Shown here: positions 21,701-44,538 of the stretch, piece after piece
Layout: the number at the start of each line of letters is the position of its first letter
Position numbering within the stretch: the first letter of the stretch is position 1
From: a virus
Strand: one strand, 5' to 3'
IMG/VR virus record: IMGVR_UViG_3300042474_000446
Span: 1 to 44,538 of that record
DNA: 44,538 bases
The notes under the pieces: model-generated
The model's database searches: none
What the model saw: the letters and a program-made list of their open reading frames with translations, nothing else
Told to the model about the DNA's origin: nothing
Program-made: the position numbers and the translations under genes

Positions 21701-24700
21701 CCTACGGTTAAATCATTAACGATTACTAACGCTAGTGGCACTGAAGCAGTAATTAAAGCTCCAGTTGAATCTGTTGAAGAATTAGCTAGTTATGCCTACG
21801 AGCAAGCCCATGGCAAATCCATCCCCAAAGGAAAACTTTTGCCAACCAAAAAAGAAACATTAAACGGCAGTAAAGGTCGTAGCTTCGATGTTACTTCTTA
21901 TGAAATTAATGGAGAACCTGCTGATTTGCATAGTATTGAAGTTGACAAAAATGGCAATCCAGTTGAATCGGAATTTGAGGGTGAAACAACAACTAAATTC
22001 TACAAGAAAGAAGAATTGGTTAAGTTCCTTACATTGACAAAAGGCAGCCAAGGTCAAATTAACTCCGATAATAAATTTGTCGATATTGCACAAGAGTCTA
22101 AACCTAAGCAATCAAGTGGTAAACCAGAAGGCGAAGCCAAACCAAAACAACAACCTAAATCAGAAAAAGATACTACTCCTAAGCCTGATCAAAAACCTGA
22201 GGATAAAAAAGATGATAACAAGCCTAGCGATACTGAAGCCAAGCCTGAATCTAAACCTGCTAAAAAACCAGTAGAAGAAAAAGAATCTACTATTGATGGT
22301 GAAGAAATTCTTCCTGCGCGTCATGCGAGTGTCATCAAGAAGTTTTCTAAAATCCTCAAAAAGCTTAATGTTAAAATTTATGTTCGCGCAAATACTAGTG
22401 AGGTAAATACATTATTGAGCGAAAAAGGAGTTCCTTTAACATCTGCTAATGATGTAATGGCTGCTACAATAATTGACGGTAAACCAGCTATTCTCATTAA
22501 TGCAGAGTTAGCAGAAAAACTGCAGGATATCAAAACTGGAATGAAACATGAAATCTTCCATGTTGTTGAAATGTTGTTTAGGATGACACCTAAAGGTAAA
22601 ACCTTATTAGGCCTCATAGATAAATCCGCTCTTGTAAAAAACAAGAAGCTTATTGAGTTAATGGAAAAAGAGTATGACGTTTCTTTTGGGGAGCTAGATC
22701 AAGATCTTGCTTTCTATGAGGTCATGAGAGCTTTTATTGCTGGCAAACTTCATGGTGAAACATTTACCTACAAACCATTTACTGACTATATTAAAGCTTT
22801 CTTGGATTACGCAAAGAAACTTATTAGTGGCGACCCATCATTACGTGAATATGTTATCGAACTTGAGGGCTTTTACAAAAAAGCAATTAAAGATGCTGAT
22901 GCAGAACTTGGCCTTAGTATTTCTTCTTCAAATAAATTCAGAGAATTTATGTCCTCTGCGCTAACCAAGGCAAAGGATTTGGTTAAATCTAAACCAAAAG
23001 ATGGCGCAGTCATTCAAACCAAAGATGCAACTGATGAAGATATTGAAGAACTTGCTAATGATTTGATTATTGGTATTGTGGAAGCGTATGAGGACTCTGT
23101 ATCTGCTAATGATATTTTCAACAAAGTTGTTGATGTTATTAATGTAAGATTAATTGATACAGATACTGGATTAAACGTTGATAGCAAAATCAAGGTTTTC
23201 CAAAAGGTTTTAGGCGAACTAAACGAAAAAGATTCAACAACTGAATTACAAACTTTGTTCAGCAATAAAGTTGAGCAACTACTTAAAGATCAATCTCCTG
23301 TTATTGGATTGCCTTCAAGTCAGCTTGGTGACGTAGAACCAATCAAAAAGAAAATTGAATTTGCTGGTTGGTCTGGAATTAGAAGATTTGTAACAGATGT
23401 AAGAGAAGATGGATTGACTCAAACCCAATCTGATATTGGTGTTGTAGAGGCTGACAACTTGCAGAAACTTCCATTTACAAACTCATATATTAATTTTGAT
23501 GCAAATCCCGAAACAGGTAAATATCCTGATCATGATTTGAAATTTGGAGATGCGCTAGAAAGCATTAATGCTGCTGGCGTTCTTGATGGATATTTGATTT
23601 ACAGTCATAGCCTTGAATTAGTTGATTCACTGACCAACAAGAAATACATGTCCCATCGCTTCATGAAGAGTCCTCTACTGAAGCAAGATGGAAAAATTAA
23701 TCCATTCTTTTCTGTTCGTCAGTCTCAATACTCTCGTGAATTTTACAATATGGTAACTGACAGCAATGTTATTGCCACGATGTTTTCTGAGACAAATCAA
23801 GGTGTAATGCTTAACTCTCCAGAGGGTTTGGTTAAACTTGTATTTGAGTCTCTTACATCCAATAGAACCAAAGGTGAAGATGGTAAAACTCCAGAAGCAT
23901 TCTTAAGACAAGGTGATAAGAGTATTAAATTTGCAGATATTTTTATATTTGTAACTGGTGACAACAAAGACGGCACAAGTCCATTTTATTTTAAAGATGG
24001 CAAGATTGTAGTTAATACTACTAAGCTTGCTAAGAACTTTAATTTTATCAATCCTAGTGCAATTAGCAATCAGGAGCAAAGAATGAGTGTTGGCTTAATG
24101 GTTGCTTCCACTGTTCGTGCTGCTATTGAAGAAGAGATTCTTCACTTAGCTACTGTTAATGCCTTTGGTAAAGCTGGTGAACTTGTTGGTTTTTATGATG
24201 AGCTTGAGAGTCTTGGTTATTTCAATGACATGATTGACCAAATCAGAGAAATGCAAGGCATTGAAAATGCTGGAGCATCTTTGACTAGAGCGGAGAAAAT
24301 CAACATTGCTGCTGAAGTAATGTCCTTTACTCATCAACGTGCAACTAATGGATCTACTTACGGAGATGAATATCAGCGTCTAGTTGAAGGAATGTATGCC
24401 AGAGGCGATCAAGGTGGTAAGGCCTTAGCTACTGCTCGCCAATATGGTCAAACATTAAACAATATCCTTCAAGCTCGCGCTGCTACGTCATTCATGTCTC
24501 CAAAGATGCAGAAGATGCTTGAGAAACTCAATAAGGTTAAGGTTGAACTTGGTGTAAACCAAAGACTTAATAACACTGATCAACTTGTTTCTAGCTATCT
24601 TAGTGAGCAATACACACTCAATAGAGGTAATATGCAGAAATCTATTGACGAAGCCTTTATGCACGACTCATTCGCCGTTGAAGAGTTTCGTGCTGAACTG

Positions 24701-27700
24701 AAGTCAATTAACATTCCTATTCGCCAAGTTATTGATATTGATTTCGAGAGTGGACAGATAACAATTGATTCTGGTTTTTCTGATTACTACATAGCAAAAC
24801 ATGGTATTGATAAGTATGACGCTATACTGTCTTACTTTAGCCGACTAAACGAAAGCCAAGTTGCTAAGAATCTTGCTCGTTCAATCAAGTCTTCTCGTCA
24901 AGTAATGGACTCAATGCGCGTGTCTTTAGACATGAATAATGAATTAGACAATCTTGCATCGCAATTAGCATCGGGCAACTTTGATGATTTGACTTCTTAT
25001 CTTGAAAACTACAATCCAGAGAATGGAAAGATTGTATTTGATAGCCTTATTCAATTGGCTAATTCTTTTGAATTTAATGATAACATTTCTTTGGCTGTAG
25101 AAAAAGACAAGGCAATGGTTAAGAGTTTTTACGATTACACTTATCGTCTTAATGAGGCATTTACAAAACTACCTACCGACTTTGACAAATCTTACCACAG
25201 TAAAGGACTTGTTAATCTTCTTGGTAATTTAGTTCCTAGATTTGGTGTGCTTGGTGATTCTTTTGAGAGTGACAAGGCTTATGTTGATAGCGCTATATCG
25301 CAACTAGTTTCACAGGATGTGATTAATCAAGGTCATGACGCAATCGTTGATGATTTGTATAGACAGTTCAAAGCTGCAAACATACTACCCAATTCCAGAA
25401 ACGCTCGCAACCAAAACCAAGAAAAGACCAAACAAAGCAAACTCCTTTCATTACTCATCAACAAAAACACCAGTATTGAAAATGCTGGCATTGTTCCAAC
25501 TTACGCTCCTTATATTGAGTCTGTAAATAACTACAATGAATTGGTTCTTAACTTTGATGAAATAATATTAAATAAAAACCTCACAAGGGTTGATGACTTT
25601 GGAAGAGATTTCGTTCCATTGAGTGAATTGATTCCTAATCTTTCAGTTGGCGTTAATACCGATCAAAACGTATTTGGTTACGTCAATCAGTATCCATCTG
25701 AAATAATGAATGATAGAGCAGCTGTTGCTGCAATGAGAAGAAAGGGTGAAACTGAAGAATCTATTCAGGCTTCAACTGTATGGCAAAACGCTTTCTTGGG
25801 GCGCTATACAAGCAAAGACAGAGAGCTTTATCCTGAAAAAACAACTAGAACAGAAGCCAACTCATCTTTCCTTGGCGAGAAACAATATAATGAATTTGTA
25901 ATTGGTCGTATGGCTGGTGCTACCTTGGTTATTCCCAGAGTAGATCAAGAAGGTAACATTACAATGTCACAAGTATCTTACGATGATTACTACAAGACAA
26001 TGGGTTTTCAGCCTGTTGTTAATAAGTATCGTATTTTTGATGGTTATGCTGATCCTTCATTGTTGAATGACAATCTATTGAAGTATTCTGTTAGCGATAG
26101 AAAGATCACTCTTTCAAAAGATGTTGAACTTGATATGCGCAACTTGAATGGCGAGATTGCTACACGATTCTTTGCAAGAAAAGATGCCAATTATGACAAC
26201 GCCATCAAAGGTGTTACTGAAATTTTATTCGGAGGTAATGATGCTAATATCAATATCGCTGATTGGTTTGACACAATTACTGGATTGATTGGTTATAATG
26301 AGAAAACTGGCGAACCAATGGTAGTTGATTCTATTAATGGACAACAAACATTTGCGTCTAAATTTGCTGATCAAATGATGTTCAGAATGTTCGGTAAGGA
26401 GACTCAACAAGATAAGAACCTGAAAGATTATATTCAGCTTCTTGATAAAGCGCATAAAGCTTTAAGACCTGGAGAATTCAAAAACGCTGCCAAACTTACT
26501 GAGAGTGAAAAACTTACAATTATTCAAGAGTTGCCAGTATTCTTGGAATTAGTTGATGCAGCTAATAGAGATATTGGTTTAGCTAGAAAAGCTTATAGCA
26601 GATTCAGAAGCCGATTCTTGTCCAGCACAATTAATGCTGATATTAGACTTATTCAGGAGCAGGGAGCTTCTGGTATTCGCGCTAATCAAAACTTGGTTGC
26701 AGCTATCTCTGAAAGTTTTTACGACATTCAGGCAATGTTTGATGTTGAGTGGCATTCTAATTACTTAGCCAATGGCGGCCAAGTTGGCTATCAAGGCCTT
26801 ACTGCATTGCAATTAATGGATGAATTTAGCCGCATCCCAAGTTCTGCTACTAATGAGTATTTTGTAGTAGGTAGGCCATCCACTAAAGCCAAGTATCTCT
26901 TGGATTACTTCACCAGTAGGCAAGGCACAATGGGTGATGCTAGAACAAAAGATTCTGATGGTAAAACTGGCTATCCACTTGATAACTTAATCTTTAACGC
27001 TATCGAGCGTCCCGCAGATAAACCAAGTGAACTTGATGAAGAGTTTAATGACGAAAGAGCAATTAAGGCTAATGAGTTCACTGAGACGCTAGACATGATG
27101 CCACAGGGCTACGAAGGCACTGTTGAGCAACTTGAGGCTAGTCGCCGTAAAGATTTAATCAACGAAGAGAAAAGAATGAAGTCATGGGCTACGCATTCTG
27201 CTCTATCTATTTTCCAAAGTATCCCAAGTGCAACTAATAACAGCTTCTCAAGAACTATTGCGCCAGAAAGAGCAAAGGCATTTTTCGATCTATTTGCTAA
27301 AACTCAAATTACAAGCGCAACAAAAGAAGAAAAAATTGTAACTCAAAGTGCTTTGCGTTCTTTGGTTAGTGAACAAATGGTTCAATTGTCCAAGCTCTAC
27401 GGCACATCAAAAGAAGAGGCTAATCCATTTGCTGAAATTGCTGGTAAAGTGTCAACATACAATCATCCATATGAATTGCTTCTTGATGTTATTGAGGCAA
27501 TTGGAGGCAAGGAAAGACAGTTTGTAAATGAACAACGTGTATTAGCTGGCAATCTTGCTGGTCAAATCATTCCACAATTAATGTTAAATACTTCTGGTGA
27601 GTCATCAAGCAATCAAGCTTCTTCACAAGAGATACTTGATTCATTGCAGGAAGACTTGGACAAAGAGAAACTATTTGCTGGAACTTTATTTAATTCACGC

Positions 27701-30700
27701 ATGTTCCAATTGGGTCAAGCGAACTCCATGATTGATAGCTCATTGTTTATGAATTCACCATTGTTCTCAATGTTGATTCAATCATTCCCCAACTTGATCA
27801 TTTATCAACCAGCTCAATACTCTGGGAAAAATAAAACTGTATCAAGAAACGTAGATATTGCTTACCTTGACAATGGTGATGCAGTTCTTTACATCAACAA
27901 TGCTGACGGACTTGGTTCAAGTAAACAGAAAGAAATTCTTGAGAAACTATTCATTGAAAGAATTGGTCAAGAAAGAGCTAATGGCGCTAGTGGTCTTGAG
28001 AGTGCGATTAACTTTGCAGCTGAAAACATTCGTAAGCAAATCAGACACGTTTTTAATGTAACTCCCGAAAGAATTGAAGCAATGGTAGTTAAAGCTACTA
28101 ATGCATTAAGTTCCATCAAAGGAATTCCACAAGAGGCAATTAAGCCACTTATTGATGGTTATCGTGCTTCGATTGAACAAGAAGCTGCTAATAAGTTATC
28201 ATTGCTTGCTGGGGATTTATCTTCTAGTAGATTTGCGGAGAATGCTTATGGACTGAATAGTATTGATGCTAAGAAATTCTTCCAGACACTTCTTACTCCT
28301 GAGTTGGCAGCGCCAATGATTATGGGAATCAAGACAACTACTGGAACAAATCTACTCAACAACTTGAGTCTTGTTACGGAAATGTTTACGAATCCAGAGG
28401 CTTACGATATCCTTAGCAAGATTAAAGCTCCAGATGCTGATTTGATTACCGATAAGGTTAATGAAAGATATGAAGCATTTATTGAAAAAGCATTGAATAG
28501 ATTTCAATCAAAAGAAATTCAAAGCGCAATTGTTTTGGATATTGCACTTGATCAAGGTAAATCCTCTTTTAGTCAATTTGAACTTGATGAAGAAGCAACA
28601 TTAAATACTGAATCTGGATTAACTGACTTTGTTGATCCTTCGTATATTGCAACGTTCCTTGAAGAAGCATTTGAGGCGAACTTTAATGAAGAACCTAGTG
28701 ATAGATCTTATCGAAGCATTAAAGAGCTTGTAAGTAGAATAAAAAATATCAAGCCTGAAGCAATTAGGGAATTGATTGATGGTTATTTACTGCAAGACGC
28801 AGTTGTCAATACTAGTGGCAAGATGACTAGTGATCAGATTAGTCAGGCTAAATCAGCAATCAAAGAAGCTGATTATGCTCCAGACTTCATGTATCGCTAT
28901 CTTGCATCTGAATTGATTAATGCACTGTCACCAGCTGCTGAATACGCAATGACAATTGATGATATGAACAATCTCCCAAGTGAGAATAGTGCTTACGATA
29001 TTATTAGAAGTGGCGCATTCCCTCTACTTGTGGAAAATACTGGAAGCACAAAGACTTCTTCTTATGGAAATCTTACTAGCTTCTATTATGGCCACTCTCC
29101 GCTTACTGAAATATTTGAGCGTAATAGAAAAGATGAGTTCGTTTCTCTGTTAGCGTCTAAAACTCCAGAGGCTAATAATGTTCTTGATAGATACATAAAC
29201 AAAGGAAGAACTGACGTATCTAGTAGAACTGCTGATTTGAATGTCTTTGAAACTAATGATCTTATATCTCAAATGAGACAGTCACTAGAAAAGACTGTTG
29301 GTGTTGATAACGTCAATCAGGCTATTGCAAATATCTCTACGCTGAAAAAACGAAATAATGAGCTTAATGATGGTGCGCGTCAAAGAATTGCTGACATCGA
29401 AGCTGAAATTCAATCACTACAACAAAGTGGTAGAGGATTAGTAGAGTTGATGGTATTCCAAAATGCTGGCAAAAAGCTAACTGATGCTTCTGAAGTAATG
29501 GATCGTGTTGCTTCAGCTATTGCAGGTCTAGTTGCTGACAAGCAAATGAAGTTACAGAATCGCTCTACAGCAATTGCTTCTTCTCTTCAAAGTAATTCCT
29601 ATGAGTATATTGACGATTATAATCAATATGTAACTAATGTTCATGATCTCGACACTGAGATTAAAGAGCTTATTGAATTCAATCAGGAAACACCTCTTGA
29701 TACACAGTCTTATCAGGACGCTATCAATAATTTGATTATGCGCAGAGATGAGCTGGCCGCCAAAGCAAACAATGAAATATCTCTTATTGCTGATTCTATT
29801 GCTCAGGAGATTTTGTCAAACGTTGTGAATGGAGCATTTGGCCTGATTCCTCCCGTTGCTGAAATGACTACTTTTATTAAGTCTAGCTACATGAGTGGCA
29901 TGCGCATATGGGAACTTGGTGATGTTGACGTAACATCCGAAACTCCTCTTGGTGTATATCTCAATTCAAGTTTCTTCAATAAGTCTAATAAGACTCGCGC
30001 AGCCAATAACCTATTTAATCCTGATTCAATAAGCAGAATGCTTGATGGATACATGGCTTCACCAGATTTGAAGGATAGGATTGCTGCTATTATTAGTTCC
30101 GACAATAAGCTCTTTAGCCAACTAAAGAAAAATGGCAAGTTGACGAAAGTCATATCCAAAGCCGTAAATGAAAACAAAGATGTATTTGATCGCGAGCAGA
30201 TTAAGAAAAATGTATCTACCAGTATTCTCAATAGTGACCTAGTAGTTAATACATTGAATGATGAGTTTAGTTTTGGTTTTGGTGATTTGATTGACAATCT
30301 TGATAACAAAGACGCTCAATCCAGTCTCATTGCTGAGTCTGAAGAAGCTATTGGCCTTGATAACACTGGCCGACTAATTAACTTGCTTCTTGCTGAACGC
30401 AAACAACTTGAAAAAGCAATTGCAGAAAGAGTTGATCAACCATCAAATAGCAAACGTGTATTAATGCAGTTGCGTAAGAGGGTTGCTTTTAATGAAGACA
30501 TTACTACTTCACGCTACAATAACAGAATTGACCCGTATTTCGAGATGAGAGTCAACTTGATCTATGATCCAAGTGCAATGGATTCATCGCCAGAGAATGA
30601 GGATTTAAAAGCGCGTATTGAACTACAGATGCAAATCATACAGGAAGCAGCTAGAATCTTCATTGAGAGAGAAGGCGAGGCAATGTATAGAGCTTTGCGT

Positions 30701-33700
30701 GAGGATGTTGATGTTTTTGGTTTAGGATTTGATATTGATCAAAACATTCAAAGAGTATTAGACATTGCAAACATCCGCAACAAGATGGAGAGAAAAGCCA
30801 AGAGCAAATATGCTAGTTATGCAGACGCTGCTTTTGATGACGAGATATCTAGCGCCAATGAGAAAGCTACTCAAATGTTTGGCGTTACGATTAATGACAT
30901 GATGACATATAATCTTGCTCCAGTCGTTATTGAAAAGACTGATGACGAGAAAACCGTTATCAAGAAAATACAAAAAAGTAATAGACTTACTTCTCAAAAA
31001 GAACAAATGCGGAGTCTTGCACTGTTTATTGAGGATGAATACACAACAAGTGTATACATGCCAACAACAACAAAACTTGAAAACGATCCAACCAAAACAT
31101 ACCTTGTTTACAACCAAGATGCGCAGAATGAACTCAAAAAGATCAAAGAACAATCAGGCGCAACATGGTCAGTTGATGAAGAGTTCAAAGATATTATCTT
31201 TCGCGCTGCATTAAATCCAGGTCAAGGCGGTAAAGGTGGATTGAAAACTCAAACTCACAAGAGCATCGAAGTAGATCCTAATGGGTTGATTGATCCTAAG
31301 CTTGCTATTGCAACAAAGATGAATCCAAATACTACGCTGAAAGAATTCATCAAAGTAGCAAGAAAGAACTTTAGTGGATATTTTATCAAGAACTCTATTG
31401 GTCAATCCATTAGCAAATTTGCGCAGGGAATTGGAGTAGTTGGAACCATTAAGCCAATTAACAAACTCAAGGACGATGAGATTAAAGACGCTTTTTCTGA
31501 AATTTATGCTTTTGCTAGCAATAAAGACAATAGTCAAATCTTGCAGGATTCTGGCATGGACTTTCTTGCTGATGCAAAAAATAAATACTCGAAAGAGCAA
31601 CAGAGAAGCATTGTTGAAAAAGCTTACGAAATTGTAGCCAAGGAAAATACATTCCTTGATCCTAAGTCAAAAGCTAGTCACGCGCTTCTATTGAATGAGG
31701 CTCAACTTATTGATGTCATCAACATGCTTAATAGTGACAAAATGAAATTAAAAGATGCTAAATTTGGCACTTATATTGATGAGGCTATTGACTCAATTGG
31801 CAAACTCTTTTCAATTGAAGAAAGCATCGCTAATGCTCCAGCTATAATGCCTTACAATTTGTCACGCGCTATTCTTGATTTGGACTTAAGTCATAATTAC
31901 TCACGACTATTCTCTATTCTATACGCATCCGATACGCTTTCTCAACTTGTTACTGGCGCTATCAACCCATTAGTTGCTGACGGTCTTCTATCTACCATGA
32001 CAATGCATGAGAATGCTTTACTTCGTCGCAAGTTTTCTGGTGGAATCGGCTCATACAATGAAGCGCTAAACCTAGTTGGGCTAATTGACCATGGATTGAA
32101 TGGTGCTTCTGGTCGTAACCGTTACAATGCAGAAATGCAAGAATTCCAAAACAAAATGGGTGTTGCTTCTAAGGACTTAAACAATGATTATCTTAATGGT
32201 GCTAAAGCAATGCTTATTGCTTCACTTAAAGGAATCAAGATAGCAAACCAAAAAGATGGTGGAACTGAACGTGACTACGTGCGCAAGGTTCATCAATGGG
32301 CTTACATGTTCAAATCTGGATATGATGATTACAAGAAGATTGAAACCAATGAAAACAAATTTAAGCAAAGCGCAAACAAACTTGCTAAATTTATCAATAG
32401 AATCAAACCTGTTGCAAGAAAGCAAAAGAAAGAAGGCGCTGCTACTGAAGAGATTTACTCATTGATTCAAAGACCTGTTACACATCTGTCCAGAATTATC
32501 AATCTTGGTTCTTATTCAGAAGCTGACATAGATAGTTACATCCAAGGCATTATCTCCAATCTTGAAGCTGGATTAAGCGATGTTGAACTTAGCGCTATAA
32601 ACAAATACTCTGACGCTCTTATCGCTGAGTTTAGTGACATCTATGATGCGCACAGAATAGCCAACATGTTTGCTAGTCGAGACAATCGCGTAGTAATGAA
32701 AGAGAACAAATTGACATCTCCAGGAAAAGTTGCTGATGCACTTGGTCGACCATATTCAATTCTGCCTCTTAAAGCTGGTTTCGTTCGTAATCCATTGAAT
32801 ACTTCAGACAATGAGTTTGATGAGGGATCGTTATCTATTGATGAATTTATTGGATTTGAACGCTCTGCTATAAACTACAAAGGAAGAAGGTCTTTGACTG
32901 CTCAAGATAACGTAGGTGATCCGCTGCGACCAATCGACCTTAATCCGTTTACTTCCGTAGATGGCCTAGCTAGAGACACAATGTATCGCACGTTTCTCGC
33001 ACCCTCATTCAATGTTATCAAGAAACTGATGGGTAATATTGAATTCAATGATAAACGCCAAATGGTTACTACACATGGATTCTTACATGGTGTTGCGGAA
33101 ATTGAAATTGGTTCAATTAAAAATGGAGAATACTTTCCAAATATTGCTTCATACATTATGCATACGGTTGAGAAAAACATCCGTAATGACATGCCAAAAC
33201 TTATTGAGGATAGCTTTATTAGCGATGTGATTAAAATTGGAAATATATCTACCCTTGTAAGAGCATTGTTTAGCGTATGGCAACCTATTACCAATGGAAT
33301 TCTACCAGCGATGACAAAGTATCTAAACGCAAGAATGATGAATGGATACAGCCATCTGAATTGGTTTGGAGTAACTCACCAATCAACTGAAGCTTTATCA
33401 GCAGCTTACAAACATTCAATCATGAATTACTGGAACAGTAATAGTGACATTGCTAATTTCGTTAAAGAAAACAGCATCAATAGCTATAAATGGAAAGCTG
33501 AAGGATCAAACATTAGAGACACTCAGATTAGCCTGACTAAATACTACAAGGAAAACAGAGCCAAGTATGGAGCTAGATGGTTGTCTGCCAGAATAAGAGA
33601 CATTGGCGAAAAGAGTCTTGATGTAACTATCGGACATCCTGAAAGACCAAACGTGCAAGCAATCTTTGTTTTTGAGTTATTCAATGAATTGCAACAAACA

Positions 33701-34744
33701 ATGGGCAATAAAGCACCTAAGACTATCGAGGAAATGTTCAAAATGAATCCAGATGACATCAGTACGCTAGCTAAAACTAAAGCTGATATCATGGTTTCTG
33801 ATTTCATGGGAATGAGTGACAAGGCAAAGAAAGCGCAAGTTTACAATCTTGACGTTAAGCGCCCAATTTCTCATTTACTTGTATCTGGACTGACTAGATT
33901 TGGTAATCACAAATTGACTACCAACGCTAACCTCATGGTTTACGGTAAGCATTTATTTATGAGAGCCATAAATAGCAAAGCTTATGACGAGAAAATAACT
34001 AGAGACGCTGTTGAAAACATTTCTGGAACACTACTTCAAAACATTCTTTACCATTACGCTAAAGCTCAAGTCATAGTCCCTGTATTTACTTGGATTGCGG
34101 CAGCATTAACTACATTTGTTTCTGAGTTTTTTGATGAAGACGAACCCGATGAATCAAAATTGCAAGTAATCAATGAAAGATACTATGATTGGTTACAAAA
34201 AATAACTCAATACACTCCTGATGGATTCTTTATTGCAAACATACTGAAAGATCAAATCTTTCCTTACATGAGCGCCTATAATAACATTGATGAAGGTATC
34301 GGTGCTGGACTTACAGATACTCTTGCTAAAGCAACACAAAATGCTATGTGGGAAACTACTGGTTTTGTTCCAGTGTATGGTGCTGGATTAGGATTACCAG
34401 CAATTGAGTCAGTTGTTAAAGTCGTTGGAAGCTATGGTTTTGATAAACTAATTGGTCCTGACGAAGAAGAAACATTCAAAGACAAAATGAAACGTGATCG
34501 TGATAAACTAAGAGAAGCTGAAAGAGCATTTTCTACGTTCTATTCACCACTTTATGAGCCTTATGAAGCATCAAGAGATATGAGTGCTGTATTCCTTAAC
34601 TACATGACCCCTAAAGATGGTTATGATGGAATATCCACTGAAGAGTTTGTGTATGGATTGTTTAGTCAATCTGCTGGAACTAGAGAAGGTAAGTCTAATC
34701 AAGCAAGAAGAGACAAGGAATTAGGGGGATGGGGAGGCTACTAA
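18737..34744 (+). CDS. Giant virion-associated protein with HExxH metalloprotease motif
   Basis: 5335 residues in one uninterrupted 16-kb frame, about 36% of the window. Residues about 425-445, 507-527, 632-650, 714-735 and 767-782 are small-residue hydrophobic segments (for example GASALALGAIGFAADK) that could form pore or amphipathic helices. Residues about 1121-1185 are a Lys/Pro/Glu linker. H1271-E-I-F-H1275 followed by E1328 (FYEVMRAF) is a zinc-metalloprotease signature. EEEILH at 1798-1803 is a weaker second motif. The rest is helical; residues 5110-5132 (VIVPVFTWIAAALTTFV) are hydrophobic. Giant proteins of this kind in podovirus-like phages are probably carried in the capsid and ejected with DNA. 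RNA polymerase motifs as in N4 virion RNAP were not found. Copies 5 and 6 of the 14-bp element lie inside. Confidence 0.85.
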   Translation: MTDPFNDNRKGFITFKKNSQYSYLNQPTEKPVESVKEEESFIPETYGDFGVTLPDALNPFKMFDSNEWANNPDSREKSAQSVAENYYNGLMQPDATVPAIVDGELKQVQASESGRLTNAGLHAYDNSLQLIGMAQKRKDGGFRLNPMTGKREFAFGSKNLTPYDPVKDRNSQKRQADKNGYGASNYELSNEEIFGRDHVSGVIDAYAKKNELDIEDLNPQSITPERFVEIRDSLRDADPTVSNFELKKKINGSNNAIIDEKAKTQYADALGYYVKEKQLGDKLVDMYNGEPIINYEKITDLNKFEEAVNTLDMPAVQKARFLTSFKRNFEEEAGNILQEQFVGSLAGQKSGEFARSFGPGNWIDKGIESLVDYKGKETPEQIMERFATGDKTAYDFLKENPFYSQDSFYLTSALKRVGLRTVNSFQNTAVGASALALGAIGFAADKMGAKEAVDLARSGIMAMAEAGATSSEMLQANAKYEGGVNEAISIGDISITDEDLYSVVGQVFETVATAGASLLVKGVAKGGTTALAKMTIAESLQAGVSKASTKIAQRKTAGLLTKSAINAKEAAKSLWTNSAKVKAGESLIATSLQGSFGSAGQALSSAYGESLNKGMSREDSLAEATGKATANGLATFTAMTLMNMVAPGVEKILMSPETAVGLGQSIKNTLANRAARKSISSGLTEVIADKPLRASLSKGVADAVRGVVAKEGVGGFIGAVAVSGVSEGLEEMIDTALATTLDAYMNNSPEARKELESGGLWLDVIKSGIMGAMMGSGVNAISLTSKDKKEMANKAKEGMNLYLEKKLPMLSSNLQQTVYVSQKDKSQPQMAQTIQQILQTGDLNQKVEAIANLGNIVATNAFKPTVPSATPSGTIAPTGTQTPTGASTVAGTATSQAVDATPNNFDSMTVDATYEAPNGTTWTRKNGQMGEPVMVGINADGSVSEMTTVQFASFVNSENKKKASQSKQAVVTPNASSTPTEVKPKGEAPTVKSLTITNASGTEAVIKAPVESVEELASYAYEQAHGKSIPKGKLLPTKKETLNGSKGRSFDVTSYEINGEPADLHSIEVDKNGNPVESEFEGETTTKFYKKEELVKFLTLTKGSQGQINSDNKFVDIAQESKPKQSSGKPEGEAKPKQQPKSEKDTTPKPDQKPEDKKDDNKPSDTEAKPESKPAKKPVEEKESTIDGEEILPARHASVIKKFSKILKKLNVKIYVRANTSEVNTLLSEKGVPLTSANDVMAATIIDGKPAILINAELAEKLQDIKTGMKHEIFHVVEMLFRMTPKGKTLLGLIDKSALVKNKKLIELMEKEYDVSFGELDQDLAFYEVMRAFIAGKLHGETFTYKPFTDYIKAFLDYAKKLISGDPSLREYVIELEGFYKKAIKDADAELGLSISSSNKFREFMSSALTKAKDLVKSKPKDGAVIQTKDATDEDIEELANDLIIGIVEAYEDSVSANDIFNKVVDVINVRLIDTDTGLNVDSKIKVFQKVLGELNEKDSTTELQTLFSNKVEQLLKDQSPVIGLPSSQLGDVEPIKKKIEFAGWSGIRRFVTDVREDGLTQTQSDIGVVEADNLQKLPFTNSYINFDANPETGKYPDHDLKFGDALESINAAGVLDGYLIYSHSLELVDSLTNKKYMSHRFMKSPLLKQDGKINPFFSVRQSQYSREFYNMVTDSNVIATMFSETNQGVMLNSPEGLVKLVFESLTSNRTKGEDGKTPEAFLRQGDKSIKFADIFIFVTGDNKDGTSPFYFKDGKIVVNTTKLAKNFNFINPSAISNQEQRMSVGLMVASTVRAAIEEEILHLATVNAFGKAGELVGFYDELESLGYFNDMIDQIREMQGIENAGASLTRAEKINIAAEVMSFTHQRATNGSTYGDEYQRLVEGMYARGDQGGKALATARQYGQTLNNILQARAATSFMSPKMQKMLEKLNKVKVELGVNQRLNNTDQLVSSYLSEQYTLNRGNMQKSIDEAFMHDSFAVEEFRAELKSINIPIRQVIDIDFESGQITIDSGFSDYYIAKHGIDKYDAILSYFSRLNESQVAKNLARSIKSSRQVMDSMRVSLDMNNELDNLASQLASGNFDDLTSYLENYNPENGKIVFDSLIQLANSFEFNDNISLAVEKDKAMVKSFYDYTYRLNEAFTKLPTDFDKSYHSKGLVNLLGNLVPRFGVLGDSFESDKAYVDSAISQLVSQDVINQGHDAIVDDLYRQFKAANILPNSRNARNQNQEKTKQSKLLSLLINKNTSIENAGIVPTYAPYIESVNNYNELVLNFDEIILNKNLTRVDDFGRDFVPLSELIPNLSVGVNTDQNVFGYVNQYPSEIMNDRAAVAAMRRKGETEESIQASTVWQNAFLGRYTSKDRELYPEKTTRTEANSSFLGEKQYNEFVIGRMAGATLVIPRVDQEGNITMSQVSYDDYYKTMGFQPVVNKYRIFDGYADPSLLNDNLLKYSVSDRKITLSKDVELDMRNLNGEIATRFFARKDANYDNAIKGVTEILFGGNDANINIADWFDTITGLIGYNEKTGEPMVVDSINGQQTFASKFADQMMFRMFGKETQQDKNLKDYIQLLDKAHKALRPGEFKNAAKLTESEKLTIIQELPVFLELVDAANRDIGLARKAYSRFRSRFLSSTINADIRLIQEQGASGIRANQNLVAAISESFYDIQAMFDVEWHSNYLANGGQVGYQGLTALQLMDEFSRIPSSATNEYFVVGRPSTKAKYLLDYFTSRQGTMGDARTKDSDGKTGYPLDNLIFNAIERPADKPSELDEEFNDERAIKANEFTETLDMMPQGYEGTVEQLEASRRKDLINEEKRMKSWATHSALSIFQSIPSATNNSFSRTIAPERAKAFFDLFAKTQITSATKEEKIVTQSALRSLVSEQMVQLSKLYGTSKEEANPFAEIAGKVSTYNHPYELLLDVIEAIGGKERQFVNEQRVLAGNLAGQIIPQLMLNTSGESSSNQASSQEILDSLQEDLDKEKLFAGTLFNSRMFQLGQANSMIDSSLFMNSPLFSMLIQSFPNLIIYQPAQYSGKNKTVSRNVDIAYLDNGDAVLYINNADGLGSSKQKEILEKLFIERIGQERANGASGLESAINFAAENIRKQIRHVFNVTPERIEAMVVKATNALSSIKGIPQEAIKPLIDGYRASIEQEAANKLSLLAGDLSSSRFAENAYGLNSIDAKKFFQTLLTPELAAPMIMGIKTTTGTNLLNNLSLVTEMFTNPEAYDILSKIKAPDADLITDKVNERYEAFIEKALNRFQSKEIQSAIVLDIALDQGKSSFSQFELDEEATLNTESGLTDFVDPSYIATFLEEAFEANFNEEPSDRSYRSIKELVSRIKNIKPEAIRELIDGYLLQDAVVNTSGKMTSDQISQAKSAIKEADYAPDFMYRYLASELINALSPAAEYAMTIDDMNNLPSENSAYDIIRSGAFPLLVENTGSTKTSSYGNLTSFYYGHSPLTEIFERNRKDEFVSLLASKTPEANNVLDRYINKGRTDVSSRTADLNVFETNDLISQMRQSLEKTVGVDNVNQAIANISTLKKRNNELNDGARQRIADIEAEIQSLQQSGRGLVELMVFQNAGKKLTDASEVMDRVASAIAGLVADKQMKLQNRSTAIASSLQSNSYEYIDDYNQYVTNVHDLDTEIKELIEFNQETPLDTQSYQDAINNLIMRRDELAAKANNEISLIADSIAQEILSNVVNGAFGLIPPVAEMTTFIKSSYMSGMRIWELGDVDVTSETPLGVYLNSSFFNKSNKTRAANNLFNPDSISRMLDGYMASPDLKDRIAAIISSDNKLFSQLKKNGKLTKVISKAVNENKDVFDREQIKKNVSTSILNSDLVVNTLNDEFSFGFGDLIDNLDNKDAQSSLIAESEEAIGLDNTGRLINLLLAERKQLEKAIAERVDQPSNSKRVLMQLRKRVAFNEDITTSRYNNRIDPYFEMRVNLIYDPSAMDSSPENEDLKARIELQMQIIQEAARIFIEREGEAMYRALREDVDVFGLGFDIDQNIQRVLDIANIRNKMERKAKSKYASYADAAFDDEISSANEKATQMFGVTINDMMTYNLAPVVIEKTDDEKTVIKKIQKSNRLTSQKEQMRSLALFIEDEYTTSVYMPTTTKLENDPTKTYLVYNQDAQNELKKIKEQSGATWSVDEEFKDIIFRAALNPGQGGKGGLKTQTHKSIEVDPNGLIDPKLAIATKMNPNTTLKEFIKVARKNFSGYFIKNSIGQSISKFAQGIGVVGTIKPINKLKDDEIKDAFSEIYAFASNKDNSQILQDSGMDFLADAKNKYSKEQQRSIVEKAYEIVAKENTFLDPKSKASHALLLNEAQLIDVINMLNSDKMKLKDAKFGTYIDEAIDSIGKLFSIEESIANAPAIMPYNLSRAILDLDLSHNYSRLFSILYASDTLSQLVTGAINPLVADGLLSTMTMHENALLRRKFSGGIGSYNEALNLVGLIDHGLNGASGRNRYNAEMQEFQNKMGVASKDLNNDYLNGAKAMLIASLKGIKIANQKDGGTERDYVRKVHQWAYMFKSGYDDYKKIETNENKFKQSANKLAKFINRIKPVARKQKKEGAATEEIYSLIQRPVTHLSRIINLGSYSEADIDSYIQGIISNLEAGLSDVELSAINKYSDALIAEFSDIYDAHRIANMFASRDNRVVMKENKLTSPGKVADALGRPYSILPLKAGFVRNPLNTSDNEFDEGSLSIDEFIGFERSAINYKGRRSLTAQDNVGDPLRPIDLNPFTSVDGLARDTMYRTFLAPSFNVIKKLMGNIEFNDKRQMVTTHGFLHGVAEIEIGSIKNGEYFPNIASYIMHTVEKNIRNDMPKLIEDSFISDVIKIGNISTLVRALFSVWQPITNGILPAMTKYLNARMMNGYSHLNWFGVTHQSTEALSAAYKHSIMNYWNSNSDIANFVKENSINSYKWKAEGSNIRDTQISLTKYYKENRAKYGARWLSARIRDIGEKSLDVTIGHPERPNVQAIFVFELFNELQQTMGNKAPKTIEEMFKMNPDDISTLAKTKADIMVSDFMGMSDKAKKAQVYNLDVKRPISHLLVSGLTRFGNHKLTTNANLMVYGKHLFMRAINSKAYDEKITRDAVENISGTLLQNILYHYAKAQVIVPVFTWIAAALTTFVSEFFDEDEPDESKLQVINERYYDWLQKITQYTPDGFFIANILKDQIFPYMSAYNNIDEGIGAGLTDTLAKATQNAMWETTGFVPVYGAGLGLPAIESVVKVVGSYGFDKLIGPDEEETFKDKMKRDRDKLREAERAFSTFYSPLYEPYEASRDMSAVFLNYMTPKDGYDGISTEEFVYGLFSQSAGTREGKSNQARRDKELGGWGGY
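24836..24849 (+). repeat. 14-bp dispersed element, copy 5 (TTTAGCCGACTAAA)
   Basis: Inside the giant gene, in frame as F-S-R-L-N, the same five residues as copy 2. The phase is the only stop-free one. Confidence 0.8.
30113..30126 (+). repeat. 14-bp dispersed element, copy 6 (TTTAGCCAACTAAA)
   Basis: Inside the giant gene, in frame as F-S-Q-L-K. 5.3 kb from copy 5. Confidence 0.8.
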
Positions 34745-35256: not shown

Positions 35257-35544
35257 TTATGAGTTAAGGAAATTTGTTTTTGGACTAGTAAACCAGCCTT
35301 CATCTTTGGCTGCCGAACTATTGTCATGAATCCATCTATGACACTCTTCACACAAGGGAACTACAACACAACAGAACTCTCTTGTAGTTCGCTTAAATGG
35401 ATGATGTGGTTCAAAGTCGCCACCAAAATGTTTCCAGTTGTTACCACGCATACGACAACGAGCACAGGCTGAAGGAATATACACTTCAAGAATACGCTTG
35501 TATTGCTCAAGCCATTCCTTCCTTTTGTCTGATATTCTTTTCAT
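35257..35544 (-). CDS. HNH-type nuclease-like protein
   Basis: 95 residues. CARCRMRG and CEECHRWIHDN give two CxxC pairs, and EPHHPFKRT supplies the central His residues, an HNH/recombination-endonuclease pattern of beta-beta-alpha-metal type. These small proteins nick or cut DNA and in phages may act near packaging or in DNA processing. A degenerate, DNA-binding-only role cannot be excluded. The start at ATG 35544 follows an AATAAA-type A-rich leader with no Shine-Dalgarno. The 90-nt structured element and promoter at 35562-35666 lie immediately upstream. Confidence 0.68.
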   Translation of the reverse strand: MKRISDKRKEWLEQYKRILEVYIPSACARCRMRGNNWKHFGGDFEPHHPFKRTTREFCCVVVPLCEECHRWIHDNSSAAKDEGWFTSPKTNFLNS

Positions 35545-35561: not shown

Positions 35562-35651
35562 GACTTCTAGTGTCATGTTTTCAAGTCACAGAGACAGGCA
35601 CTCTTCCCATTTAAGGGCTTTATCCTGGGTCGCCACCCCAGCCTAGAAGTC
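35562..35651 (-). ncRNA. Candidate 90-nt structured RNA or leader, 9-bp closing stem
   Basis: On the minus strand the element opens with GACTTCTAG (35651-35643) and closes with its exact complement CTAGAAGTC (35570-35562). Between them are the hairpins CTGGG-GTGGCGA-CCCAG and CCC-TTAAAT-GGG, and a bulged stem UGUC-ucu-GUG / CAU-GACA, giving a multi-way junction. A TGATATAAT extended -10 ends 6 bases before the opening G, so transcription should begin at the first base of the stem. No open frame of note lies inside. It may be a free small RNA or the 5' leader of the HNH gene 17 bp downstream. I do not recognise the family. Confidence 0.6.
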
Positions 35652-35657
35652 AAATCT

Positions 35658-35666
35658 ATTATATCA
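35658..35666 (-). promoter_or_regulatory. Extended -10 promoter TGATATAAT
   Basis: A perfect extended -10 (TG-A-TATAAT) on the minus strand in the spacer after the 66-residue gene. No good -35 is seen at 17 bp, as is common for extended -10 promoters. The predicted start is about 35651, the first base of the structured element. Confidence 0.7.
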
Positions 35667-35686: not shown

Positions 35687-35887
35687 TTATGGATTGGATT
35701 TCTCCATGAAAGCAATTTCAGGCCTTTCAGTGCGTGACTGACGGTATTGCAGCTCTACTCGCAGCGATCCAATGACCACGGCCCCTGCTCGACAAATTGC
35801 CATGGCTTCCTCCGCACTGATGTCCTTGCTTTCAAGAGCCTTTACTGTGCTTGCCATCTTTTCTCTTAGTTTCTCGATTGTATTCAT
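35687..35887 (-). CDS. Small hypothetical protein
   Basis: 66 residues, helical N-terminus (MNTIEKLREKMASTVKALES), then EEAMAICRAGAVVIGSLRVEL. No family is recognised. It overlaps the upstream 138-residue gene by ATGA, so the two are coupled. G+C is higher than in the plus-strand structural genes. It is the last gene before the extended -10 promoter. Confidence 0.55.
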   Translation of the reverse strand: MNTIEKLREKMASTVKALESKDISAEEAMAICRAGAVVIGSLRVELQYRQSRTERPEIAFMEKSNP

Positions 35888-36300
35888 AGTGATTTGATTC
35901 TGGTTCTAAGTTTTCGGTTCAGTCGGATGTGTTCGCGCTTAAAGTCGATCAGTTCTTTCGGGCAGTCTGCCAAGCGCATGTGTAGGTATTTGGCAGCGAC
36001 TGTTCCATCGGTCAGTTTCTCCGTCATCCTCTTGGGCTTTGCCTTTTTCGCCGCCTTCGTTCGTTGTGGCTTTCTGGTTTTGCGCGGGTGATCCTTTGGG
36101 AGTTTTGCCCATGCTTTACGCTCTTGCTGGCGTTCCCTTTCACGAACTTCCTTCTTTTCCCTACGTTTTTGCTGATTCTCTATGCGTTTTGCCCATCGAA
36201 CTGGGTCATTCCTTAGTTTTTCATAATAACGCTTAAGCGCTGCTTTTCGCAAAGACGCAGAACAATTTAAAACAGATTCTACTTGATTGTTATCCACCAT
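35884..36300 (-). CDS. Basic, probably nucleic-acid-binding hypothetical protein
   Basis: 138 residues, about one third Lys/Arg. Residues 30-95 are a long charged stretch (ENQQKRREKKEVRERERQQE), followed by a helical C-terminus with MRLADCPKELIDFKREHIRL. The C-terminal pattern resembles short helices found in small phage proteins of unknown function. It overlaps ThyX by 11 bp at its start and the 66-residue gene by ATGA at its end, forming a ThyX-138-66 unit. DNA or RNA binding is inferred from charge only. Confidence 0.55.
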   Translation of the reverse strand: MVDNNQVESVLNCSASLRKAALKRYYEKLRNDPVRWAKRIENQQKRREKKEVRERERQQERKAWAKLPKDHPRKTRKPQRTKAAKKAKPKRMTEKLTDGTVAAKYLHMRLADCPKELIDFKREHIRLNRKLRTRIKSL

Positions 36301-36940
36301 ACCCCAAGGCCTCTAATGAATGCTTAAATGGATTGCCATCAATAAGGCGCACAGCATCAAGCATCATTTGAACAAGTTCCCGTGTTTCTTGTTGAGCATC
36401 TGGTTTCAGTCGCAGGTTGAACAGATGGATGAATGAGAGCAGTGATCCAGTCCAGATGAACTTTGTCATCAAGCACAATGGCAAGTGACAGCGAGCTTGC
36501 TCCTTTGAGACACCAAGCTCAACCATGTCTTGATATAGCTTCTTGCTTTCATTAATAACTGCATTAACACGGGAAACAATAAGGTCATTAAGTTCCTCAT
36601 GAAGATGTCCATCACTTCCCTGCTTTGAGTCTTTTGATTGAAGGCGATATTGCGTTGGAGCCTCATATTCGTCATGAAAGTCCACATACCTGCCACTAAT
36701 GCTGTTTGCAGACATCCCAACTTGATGTTTGAATAGCTGGCGCTCAACGTAGATTGGGCATTCAATTCTAAACTGTAGCTGTGGGTGACGAAGTGGTGAT
36801 GTGTGCTTATGATCAATCAAGAACTTAATCAGCCTAGTGTCTTTATCTCCAAACTCTTTTGACTCTTTATCGTAACTGACGCGAGCCGCATTGACGATCA
36901 TGAGATCGTCTCCAAAGTGATTTAATAGTTCTACATTCAT
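36290..36940 (-). CDS. thyX: Flavin-dependent thymidylate synthase ThyX
   Basis: 216 residues from ATG 36940; an in-frame ATG at 37015 would add 25 residues (MRNIRLITPSQTRRKIRYHN...). I prefer 36940 because MNVELLNHFGDDLMIVNAARVSY matches the usual family N-terminus. ThyX makes dTMP from dUMP with FAD, NADPH and methylene-tetrahydrofolate. The signature appears as F-K71-H-Q-V-G-M-S-A-N-S-I-S-G-R-Y, a variant of RHRx7S: Lys and Gln replace the two Arg, and one residue is added. The C-terminal half has KEQARCHLPLCLMTKFIWTG, the conserved substrate-binding helix. ThyX helps keep the phage supplied with thymine nucleotides. It is the first gene of an overlapping unit. Confidence 0.9.
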   Translation of the reverse strand: MNVELLNHFGDDLMIVNAARVSYDKESKEFGDKDTRLIKFLIDHKHTSPLRHPQLQFRIECPIYVERQLFKHQVGMSANSISGRYVDFHDEYEAPTQYRLQSKDSKQGSDGHLHEELNDLIVSRVNAVINESKKLYQDMVELGVSKEQARCHLPLCLMTKFIWTGSLLSFIHLFNLRLKPDAQQETRELVQMMLDAVRLIDGNPFKHSLEALGYGG

Positions 36941-37269
36941 CGGATGGGTGTGGTTGTTGTGGTATCTGATTTTTCTACGTGTCTGCGAAGGCGTAATCAG
37001 ACGGATATTTCTCATTCTTTAGACATGACCGAGGTGCTTACACAGGTATTACCACAATCGCACCCACTGTTCAGGTCGCTCACACGCATCATGTTCGTCG
37101 TAGTTTCAGACGATACTCGATGCATACGATCAAACGATGTGCCCTCAATGCAATGAGCGCGAGTGTAGGGACATACTAAGCGGTATGTCAGCGCTTTACA
37201 TAGTCAGTAACCAAATACCTACCAAGTAATACTGTCATCGACCAATAACAGTATCTGACTAAATAAAAT
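36941..37269 (-). other. Non-coding, foldable spacer between tRNA and ThyX
   Basis: 329 bp with no convincing gene. It holds GACATAC-TAAGCG-GTATGTC (37170-37189, a perfect 7-bp hairpin), and a composite fold: TAGTCAG (37201-37207) pairs with CTGACTA (37255-37261), while ATACTGT (37229-37235) pairs with ACAGTAT (37248-37254) directly beside it. A CTCA-ATGCAA-TGAG hairpin and several ATCGT/CGAT repeats lie around 37100-37160. No second tRNA was found. It may be a ThyX leader, a small RNA or tRNA-processing region. The part from 36941 to 37015 could be coding if ThyX uses the upstream ATG. Confidence 0.5.
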
Positions 37270-37345
37270 TGGTTGCGGGAGTCGGATTTGAACCGACGAT
37301 CTCAGGCTTATGAAACCCGCGACTTAACCTCTTGTCCATCCCGCA
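37270..37345 (-). tRNA. tRNA with CAT anticodon (Met type), CCA encoded
   Basis: Minus-strand cloverleaf of 76 nt. The acceptor stem TGCGGGA/TCCCGCA is perfect, followed by discriminator A and an encoded CCA. The D arm is GAC/GTC; the anticodon stem CGGGT/GCCTG (two wobbles) has loop TTCATAA, anticodon CAT. The T arm is GTCGG-TTCAAAT-CCGAC. The 3' half (GATCGTCGGTTCAAATCCG) is the same as in bacterial initiator tRNA-fMet, but base 1 pairs with 72 (T-A) and the three-GC anticodon stem of initiators is missing. It is probably an elongator or modified initiator-like tRNA-Met; tRNA-Ile2(CAT) cannot be excluded. It lies 5 bp after the DUF3310 gene. Confidence 0.93.
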
Positions 37346-37950: not shown

Positions 37951-39783
37951 TTAAAGCCATGGTTTTTGGGTTGGAGAATACATTGGTCGAACAGGACCGG
38001 GACTTGGGAGGAAGCGTTTGGTAGATTTGTCAAACCACGTATTGGTCATTGGAATCTCACCAGTAGCACGTTGCTTACGGCAGATTAGCTTACCACATGG
38101 AGTTGATTCCCAGAACTCTTGCATTGCGTCATCGGGATAGTCATTAGCCTTCATCTCTGCAAGACGCTCATGCTTGGATACGTCACGCCATACAGTAATG
38201 ATGTTGTCTGGCATGTTACCCCACTCACTAGCACCTTGAATCTCGGCGATAGCTGGTGGACTACTGACACCTTCACCACTCTTACGTGGATGCGCCACAA
38301 CATGAACATGAACAGGATAGTTGGATGCAAAGACACGGATAGCGTCAATAGCTTGTGCTTGAGCGGTATTGTCTCCGCGATCAACATCCATCGTCATTAC
38401 GTTATCAATGACAAAATTAGTTACCCCATACCGTTTATGGGCATGGATGAACATGTTAATGAGTTTGAGAGGGTTTGCTTTCTCTCTGCTTTTGTAGATA
38501 AAGCAATGTTCACTGAGATACTTGAATGCTTTTTCAAAGTCATCATCAGCTACAATATCTGAATTGCCAGTCATGTTCATCAAGATGGAACCAAACGTGC
38601 GCTCAGGTGGCTGCTCAAAAGAAGCAACAACACTCATAACCCCACGCGCAGCTAAGTTAGCTACTTGATTCTGAACTGCTTGGGACTTACCCTGCGATGT
38701 GTAACCAAACCACAGAGTAATCTCATTCTTACGGAAAGTAAGGTCAAAGCCAGGAATAAAGAACGGATCACCATCAAGAAGATAGTCACCACGAATGAAG
38801 TCCATAACCTCACCCTTCATCTCTATGGCATCTACAATCTCATCAAGTTGACCTTTGGCAGTTGACTCAATAAGATTGATGATCTCTCCACCACGGCCAG
38901 CCTTGAGCATGTCATTGGCATCCTTGAGAGGAAGATTGACGATGATGCATTTATCAATACCTAGACGCGCTGCAACATCGACAGCGCATTTCTTGCCAGC
39001 TGCATCATTATCCATAATAAGAACAATGGTGTCGAAGTAAGAAAGGTATTCATAATCCTCCTTAATCCAATTCATATTGGAAACACCAGAAGGAATAGAA
39101 ACAGCGGGAAGCCCTAGCTCAAACATGGCTAAGGCATCCCACTGCCCTTCTACAATAATGAGACGATCACTATTTGTAGAAGGATCACAAACATCTTTGC
39201 CAAACAAGTTGTGGACTGGATTGGGACTACACCACATCGTTTTATCGTTGTTCGGCATCCAATGTTTGTTAAGACTAAGGCGTGATTCACAGTCGTAATG
39301 CGGAAAGATAAGCTCTCCGCGAGCACCTGTGCCAACGCTGTATGCATCAAGTGTGCGCTTACTAATCTTGCGTTCAGCAGCATACTTGATGCAATCCTCG
39401 CTAAGAGGTTTGATAGCTTCAGCCAACTCTTTGTAATTTGTTGACTTGTTTGCTCCAGAAAAATTCTGAATAGGAGCAATGTTGAGGAAATTACCAAGCC
39501 ATGCAATGCTTGCGGGAATGGAAATACCTTTGACTAAATGAACTAACTTCCATGCACTACCCTTGATTGCAGGGTTGGCATGGTCATAAAACTGACCAAT
39601 GTTATACGACTTAGTTGAAATACTAAGACTATCTCCAGGATTTCCGTCAATGTTGCCAACACGGTAGCATCCTGTTTGTTTCTTTGCGGCAGGGAACAAG
39701 GTTAAAACGAACTCGTCAATGCGATGTTCTAGCTTTGCTTTGATTTCTTGTAAGTCGTATATCGTTTTGGTTTCAGTTATCAT
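37951..39783 (-). CDS. DNA primase-helicase (T7 gp4/Twinkle-like, TOPRIM plus RecA-type helicase)
   Basis: 610 residues. The TOPRIM part has VEGQWDA (E about residue 212) and IMDNDAAG (D258-x-D260), then PLKDANDML. The helicase part has Walker A GYTSQGKS (about 360-367), a FEQPPER stretch, Walker B FVIDN (about 457-461) and a VHVVAHPRK motif (about 494-502). This is the bifunctional hexameric replicative enzyme that unwinds DNA and may prime lagging strands. No Cys4/Cys-His zinc finger is seen at the N-terminus (a single C39 near TGCYRVG), so priming may be reduced or different, as in Twinkle. It overlaps the upstream gene by 11 bp. Confidence 0.9.
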   Translation of the reverse strand: MITETKTIYDLQEIKAKLEHRIDEFVLTLFPAAKKQTGCYRVGNIDGNPGDSLSISTKSYNIGQFYDHANPAIKGSAWKLVHLVKGISIPASIAWLGNFLNIAPIQNFSGANKSTNYKELAEAIKPLSEDCIKYAAERKISKRTLDAYSVGTGARGELIFPHYDCESRLSLNKHWMPNNDKTMWCSPNPVHNLFGKDVCDPSTNSDRLIIVEGQWDALAMFELGLPAVSIPSGVSNMNWIKEDYEYLSYFDTIVLIMDNDAAGKKCAVDVAARLGIDKCIIVNLPLKDANDMLKAGRGGEIINLIESTAKGQLDEIVDAIEMKGEVMDFIRGDYLLDGDPFFIPGFDLTFRKNEITLWFGYTSQGKSQAVQNQVANLAARGVMSVVASFEQPPERTFGSILMNMTGNSDIVADDDFEKAFKYLSEHCFIYKSREKANPLKLINMFIHAHKRYGVTNFVIDNVMTMDVDRGDNTAQAQAIDAIRVFASNYPVHVHVVAHPRKSGEGVSSPPAIAEIQGASEWGNMPDNIITVWRDVSKHERLAEMKANDYPDDAMQEFWESTPCGKLICRKQRATGEIPMTNTWFDKSTKRFLPSPGPVRPMYSPTQKPWL

Positions 39784-44289: not shown

Positions 44290-44538
44290 CTTTTTCTATT
44301 GTTTTTTTGAATCCAGTATTGCTTGCTTCGTGAAACACAACAATACCTTCTGGATTCATAAAGTCACGCTTTGCGATACTACCTTCTAGTTTTAGATTTT
44401 GCAACACTTGATCAATAGCAACTGTATCAAATACGCCATCGTAAAGAACTGGAACTAAGTCGCAACAAATAGGAAGAACATCTTGGTATTTAATGACGCT
44501 AGGATCAGCTTTTAAGATTTGCTGCGGCTCTTCATTAT
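44264..44538 (-). CDS. RNA ligase-like protein, C-terminal fragment (5' end outside window)
   Basis: The minus-strand frame is open from the window edge to TGA 44264-44266 (about 90 residues visible). FMNPEGIVVFHEASNTGFKK followed by TIEKDDSPKSL matches the end of phage RNA ligase/nucleotidyltransferase domains, where EGIVV is motif IV and the Lys-rich FKKTIE part is motif V. The catalytic Lys of motif I lies outside the window. Such ligases seal RNA nicks, including host-damaged tRNAs. The tRNA in this same region makes an RNA-repair role worth considering. Confidence 0.62.
   Translation of the reverse strand, partial: NEEPQQILKADPSVIKYQDVLPICCDLVPVLYDGVFDTVAIDQVLQNLKLEGSIAKRDFMNPEGIVVFHEASNTGFKKTIEKDDSPKSLV

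Follow-up and report, generated by a model that had tools for sequence, protein, structure and literature searches.

A conserved candidate structured RNA in the early messages of a small clade of tailed phages

Does the short intergenic element on the minus strand (35562..35651; 90 nt) of the uncultivated bacterial virus IMGVR_UViG_3300042474_000446 encode a folded RNA, and what might that RNA do? The window analysed here is the whole 44,538-nt stretch of this record. The initial annotation proposed a possible undescribed phage RNA, closed by a 9-bp stem that begins where an extended -10 would start transcription. Both parts are present: the stem is formed by GACTTCTAG (35651-35643, minus) and its perfect complement CTAGAAGTC (35570-35562), and the extended -10, TGATATAAT, lies at 35666-35658 (minus). 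Within the window sequence alone, neither exceeds chance. The window has 17 perfect 9-bp inverted repeats with a 40-100-nt spacer where shuffles average 15.2, a single TGNTATAAT compares with 2.5 expected, and no -35 for this -10 is found among the promoter matches listed for the window. The element as a whole is predicted to fold modestly better than shuffles (z -2.0; 6/200). It is comparison with related phage sequences that establishes the closing stem as real.

Exact-pattern scans of IMG/VR converge on six phage records that carry the element: the window, L023 (the same as L002 and L007), L033 (L004 and L005), L024 (L003 and L006), L027 (L015) and L029 (L036). Searches with the 95-aa HNH protein encoded next to the element (P0001; gene HNH95) and with a first DNA pattern returned three close records only. 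A 17-nt pattern taken from the P2 hairpin region led to L015, and a primase alignment gave 14 loci, among them L029, which holds a third variant of the element. A model search across records detects one strong-scoring copy in each, and a sequence model built without L029 recovers that record at E 7e-14. A second, weak model match at window position 5647+ (17.4 bits, E 0.12) and pattern matches in L016, L017 and L021 were set aside as chance. Blastn searches of phage and plasmid collections gave no homologues, or chance matches only, and one strict pattern scan of genome contigs, which diverged bacterial copies could escape, gave three matches, all chance. L031, whose primase is 92% identical in amino acids and whose record covers the region through to ORF120 and the giant gene, carries neither the element nor HNH95.

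The core of the element is conserved to an unusual degree for these genomes. A near-invariant block of 52 nt (35593..35644, minus) is identical to L027 at 51 of 52 bases (blastn E 1.6e-20). Between the same two phages the primase gene is 77% identical in DNA and 50% identical at third codon positions, and the HNH gene reaches 72% identity. Of 1773 primase windows of 52 nt, not one has as many as 51 identities. Like L027, L029 is so diverged that identity at primase third codon positions is only about 50%. Judged from these alignments, constraint on the element is far above that on the coding genes compared. A coding-sequence reading of the element is ruled out, because P1, the closing stem, is wholly replaced among the relatives, a loop differs in length by 1 nt, and the core of L029 is shorter by 11 nt.

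The strands of P1 (GACUUCUAG at 35643..35651 and CUAGAAGUC at 35562..35570, both minus) pair as GACTTCTAG/CTAGAAGTC in the window clade and L024, as ATTGCATTAAG/CTTAATGCAAT in L027 (11 bp) and as TTGCATTAAG/CTTAATGCAA in L029 (10 bp), perfectly in the latter two as well. In a shared nine-pair register, into which the arms were brought by hand trimming of the alignment, every cell pairs (100%) and four pairs are altered on both sides in L027/L029. Over the whole structure 99% of cells pair, compared with 31-48% after sliding the partner columns. The compensating changes in related phages that the initial annotation had suggested looking for are therefore found, the stems of L027 and L029 being rewritten on both sides with pairing intact. 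This covariation, effectively one evolutionary contrast drawn from six records in all, supports P1 but not the inner helices. The element combines a compensated helix with a 51/52 core, as is generally expected of a conserved structured RNA. A core that is kept while P1 is rewritten and yet pairs points to a real RNA that is absent from the catalogues. On comparative grounds the element is probably a genuine structured RNA, and a single-stranded-DNA element is less likely.

Three further helices had been described inside the stem. Two of these are plausible: the P2 hairpin, CUGGG-GUGGCGA-CCCAG (35625..35641, minus), and the P3 hairpin, CCC-UUAAAU-GGG (35606..35617, minus), although P3 is dispensable, as it is deleted in L029. 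P2 is invariant save for a U.U mismatch in L029, and so stands as a predicted helix without proof from covariation. The third helix is ambiguous. The 3' domain, AGUGCCUGUC-variable loop-GACUU.AAAACAUGACA (35571..35602, minus), is invariant except for a loop of 5-6 nt and one base, which leaves its pairing ambiguous. Fold prediction offers UGUC/GACA, GUC/GAC and longer alternatives; further options are AGUG/CACU and a pseudoknot in which UGCC pairs with GGCG of the P2 loop. The antisense strand of the element is predicted to fold about equally well, so we infer the minus strand to be the sense strand from gene direction and position.

The agreement between promoter start and stem start, which the initial annotation took as the sign of a dedicated small RNA, does not survive the same comparison. 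The -10-like sequence sits in a gene-bearing stretch of about 640 bp that L024 does not have. In L024 only 7 nt separate the thyX stop codon from P1, the two small genes in between are absent, and TATAAT aligns with GATAAC, which overlaps the thyX stop codon. The sequence upstream of the element differs again in L027 and L029, where the -10 has no counterpart. The coincidence is, as far as these alignments indicate, limited to the window clade, and we reject it as evidence, given that TGNTATAAT is at chance level and the -10 is conserved in none of L024, L027 and L029. No terminator within or just 3' of the element is among the matches in the window. The element lacks the conserved promoter and, in the window, any match to the terminator that would mark an independently transcribed small RNA.

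The surrounding operon runs in the order primase, variable genes, element, next gene, HNH95, ORF120 and then a convergent giant late gene. In the window, the gene for a flavin-dependent thymidylate synthase, thyX (36290..37015, minus; Pfam PF02511, E 1.5e-44), is followed by two small genes of 138 and 66 aa (35687..36300, minus) that are absent in L024, where thyX lies directly upstream of the element. HNH95 is the next gene downstream of the element (35257..35544, minus; matches to the HNH endonuclease groups PHROG 740, E 3e-5, and PHROG 14515, E 8e-5) and is conserved in all six element-bearing records. In each of the six the element occupies a tight gap between co-directional early genes and P1 ends 15-22 nt from the next ATG, with four different upstream neighbours across the set. 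A position just before an HNH gene, as originally described, applies to four phages (the window clade and L024), but not to L027, where the next gene encodes an RNA ligase (Pfam PF09414, E 1.6e-9), nor to L029, where a ligase fragment is followed by an inserted HNH gene and then the full ligase. Sequences of the gap before the start codon, read by eye, contain no Shine-Dalgarno sequence or terminator that replaces the element. A mobile cassette of element plus HNH gene, suspected from L003, was rejected, since the records remain similar on either side and have the same gene order.

Several other features of these genomes came to light. In L029 (10296-11525) the 24-aa 5'-end fragment of the RNA ligase behind the element is followed by a 164-aa gene with an HNH-like motif and by a full ligase with a diverged start, an arrangement that looks as if a homing-type gene had inserted into the ligase gene some 72 nt after its start. 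At 44291-44536 (minus), on the window's edge, is the C-terminal portion of an RNA ligase in second position that shares about 60% identity with its L027 counterpart, so the window phage carries a ligase gene apart from the element. One ORF of 5335 aa (18737-34744, plus) occupies much of the 44.5-kb record, and its counterpart in the relatives is convergent with the early operon. Two strong hairpins lie inside the primase gene (39095-39183, minus; z -5.9 for a 221-nt fold); they are kept in L024 and weak in L027, L028 and L031, and one is kept in L029. The noncoding stretch that separates a tRNA gene from thyX (37016-37272, minus) folds much better than shuffles (-84.1 kcal/mol, z -3.2), as does its 541-nt counterpart in L024 (4960-5500; -176.7, z -4.4). 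Its first 100 nt or so are conserved, an inner segment is replaced wholesale between the window and L022/L023/L033, and it has no Rfam match at gathering score. This stretch may be a second, tRNA-adjacent phage RNA.

The 90-nt element falls into none of the families of Rfam 15, whether riboswitches, ribozymes, HEARO, tmRNA or others. Its covariance models give no match to the window element at gathering score or at E<=10, no match to L015 or L006 at E<=1, and chance-level matches only to L029, in keeping with the original statement that the element follows no riboswitch or ribozyme consensus. With its strong core conservation, a P1 compensated in two relatives and no Rfam match in the variants searched, the proposal of an undescribed phage RNA is borne out. 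A tRNA or tmRNA identity was rejected; ARAGORN finds no gene in the element-bearing record L015, and the Rfam tRNA match in the window lies elsewhere (37273-37345). HEARO is an IscB-associated RNA found beside an HNH gene, and our element likewise adjoins a gene with an HNH motif, but the HNH protein here has only 95 aa, Rfam gives no match, and in L027 and L029 other genes separate the HNH gene from the element. Searches of the open literature, at the level of the titles and abstracts of the hits, gave no account of a motif like this one. Comparative genomics of bacteria, archaea and metagenomes has yielded candidate structured RNAs (e.g. Genome Biol. 2010 11:R31, PMC2864571). Our element resembles these candidates in being intergenic, with a conserved core and a covarying closing helix, and differs, as far as the comparison with motifs in the literature goes, in being known here from six phage records only and in having no Rfam 15 match.

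That the element forms a structured RNA within an early mRNA is well supported, and it is most likely a control element in the early messages of the virus. We tentatively favour, at somewhat short of an even chance, the view that in a small clade of tailed phages a conserved structured RNA within the polycistronic early message serves in cis as 5' leader to the gene behind it. In this RNA, encoded by the minus strand at 35651-35562, P1, a closing helix of free sequence, would present an almost invariant core of about 60 nt composed of hairpin P2, the dispensable hairpin P3 and the invariant 3' domain. It would act on the HNH gene in the window and on the RNA ligase gene in two relatives. A protein or small molecule might bind the core, or else the 3' domain (AGUG...CACU) might compete with the innermost P1 pairs; regulation, in whichever direction, would come from altered ribosome or RNase access to the start region 15-22 nt downstream. 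This reading draws on the 51/52 core against a saturated primase, on the compensation in P1, and on the kept distance to the ATG despite changing upstream genes, which makes a cis leader the most economical reading. Like riboswitch-type leaders, the element has a variable P1 that closes an invariant core just upstream of a start codon, but unlike them it lacks a known ligand or an expression platform visible by eye (neither a terminator nor a sequestered Shine-Dalgarno) and precedes two unrelated downstream genes, which is unusual for a ligand-specific leader. Also against a leader, L029 retains the RNA although the adjoining gene is only a 24-aa ligase fragment, the covariation is essentially one contrast, the antisense strand folds too, and six records only are known.

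Because the downstream genes differ and L029 has a ligase fragment next to the element, the element could instead be a small RNA processed to act in trans, a closed fold of 80-96 nt that is cut out of the early mRNA or has a promoter of its own. It would bind a phage or host protein, for instance to decoy or regulate an enzyme of defence or RNA processing. We consider this rather unlikely: it would accommodate the compact closed fold with paired ends, the neighbours that change on both sides, the retention in L029 ahead of a broken-off ligase and the -10 of the window clade, but not the lack of promoter conservation, the missing terminator match at the 3' end in the window or the kept distance to the next start codon. 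It is improbable that the element is a self-cleaving ribozyme cutting the early mRNA between upstream and downstream genes, even though its size, intergenic position, variable closing stem, invariant core, optional P3 and possible pseudoknot between the P2 loop (GGCG) and UGCC recall small ribozymes such as twister, pistol and hammerhead. Unlike these, it has no match to an Rfam 15 ribozyme family and is known here from sequence alone; no cleavage site can be named, the candidate pseudoknot pairs never vary and, to our knowledge, none of the hallmark core sequences of the three ribozymes occurs in it. Stem compensation is to be expected of single-stranded DNA as much as of RNA, the two strands are predicted to fold about equally well, and a primase-helicase gene lies upstream of the element in every record, all of which would suit a stem serving a single-stranded-DNA hairpin, such as a priming or replication-start site for that enzyme. 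Such a site is nevertheless very unlikely, as L031 has a similar primase (92% aa) without the element and the constant position before a start codon would go unexplained. A recognition or homing site for the HNH protein, with no RNA involved, would account for the joint presence of element and HNH95 in 6/6 records and their joint absence from L031, where the region is covered. We regard this as extremely improbable. Recognition of duplex DNA would not call for a stem that covaries, and the core is fixed in L027 and L029 even though their HNH genes lie at a distance of several genes and have identities of 74% and 66%, respectively.

A near-invariant core and a fully compensated closing stem, amid coding genes that are saturated at silent sites, suggest binding or catalysis rather than a passive hairpin. 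The element may represent a riboswitch or self-cleaving ribozyme of a new, phage-borne class, whose invariant core of about 60 nt, with a pseudoknot between loop and junction, would bind a ligand or cleave the early mRNA; we consider this bolder proposal unlikely. The three natural variants, one of them without P3, form a ready set for biochemical tests of this phage RNA.
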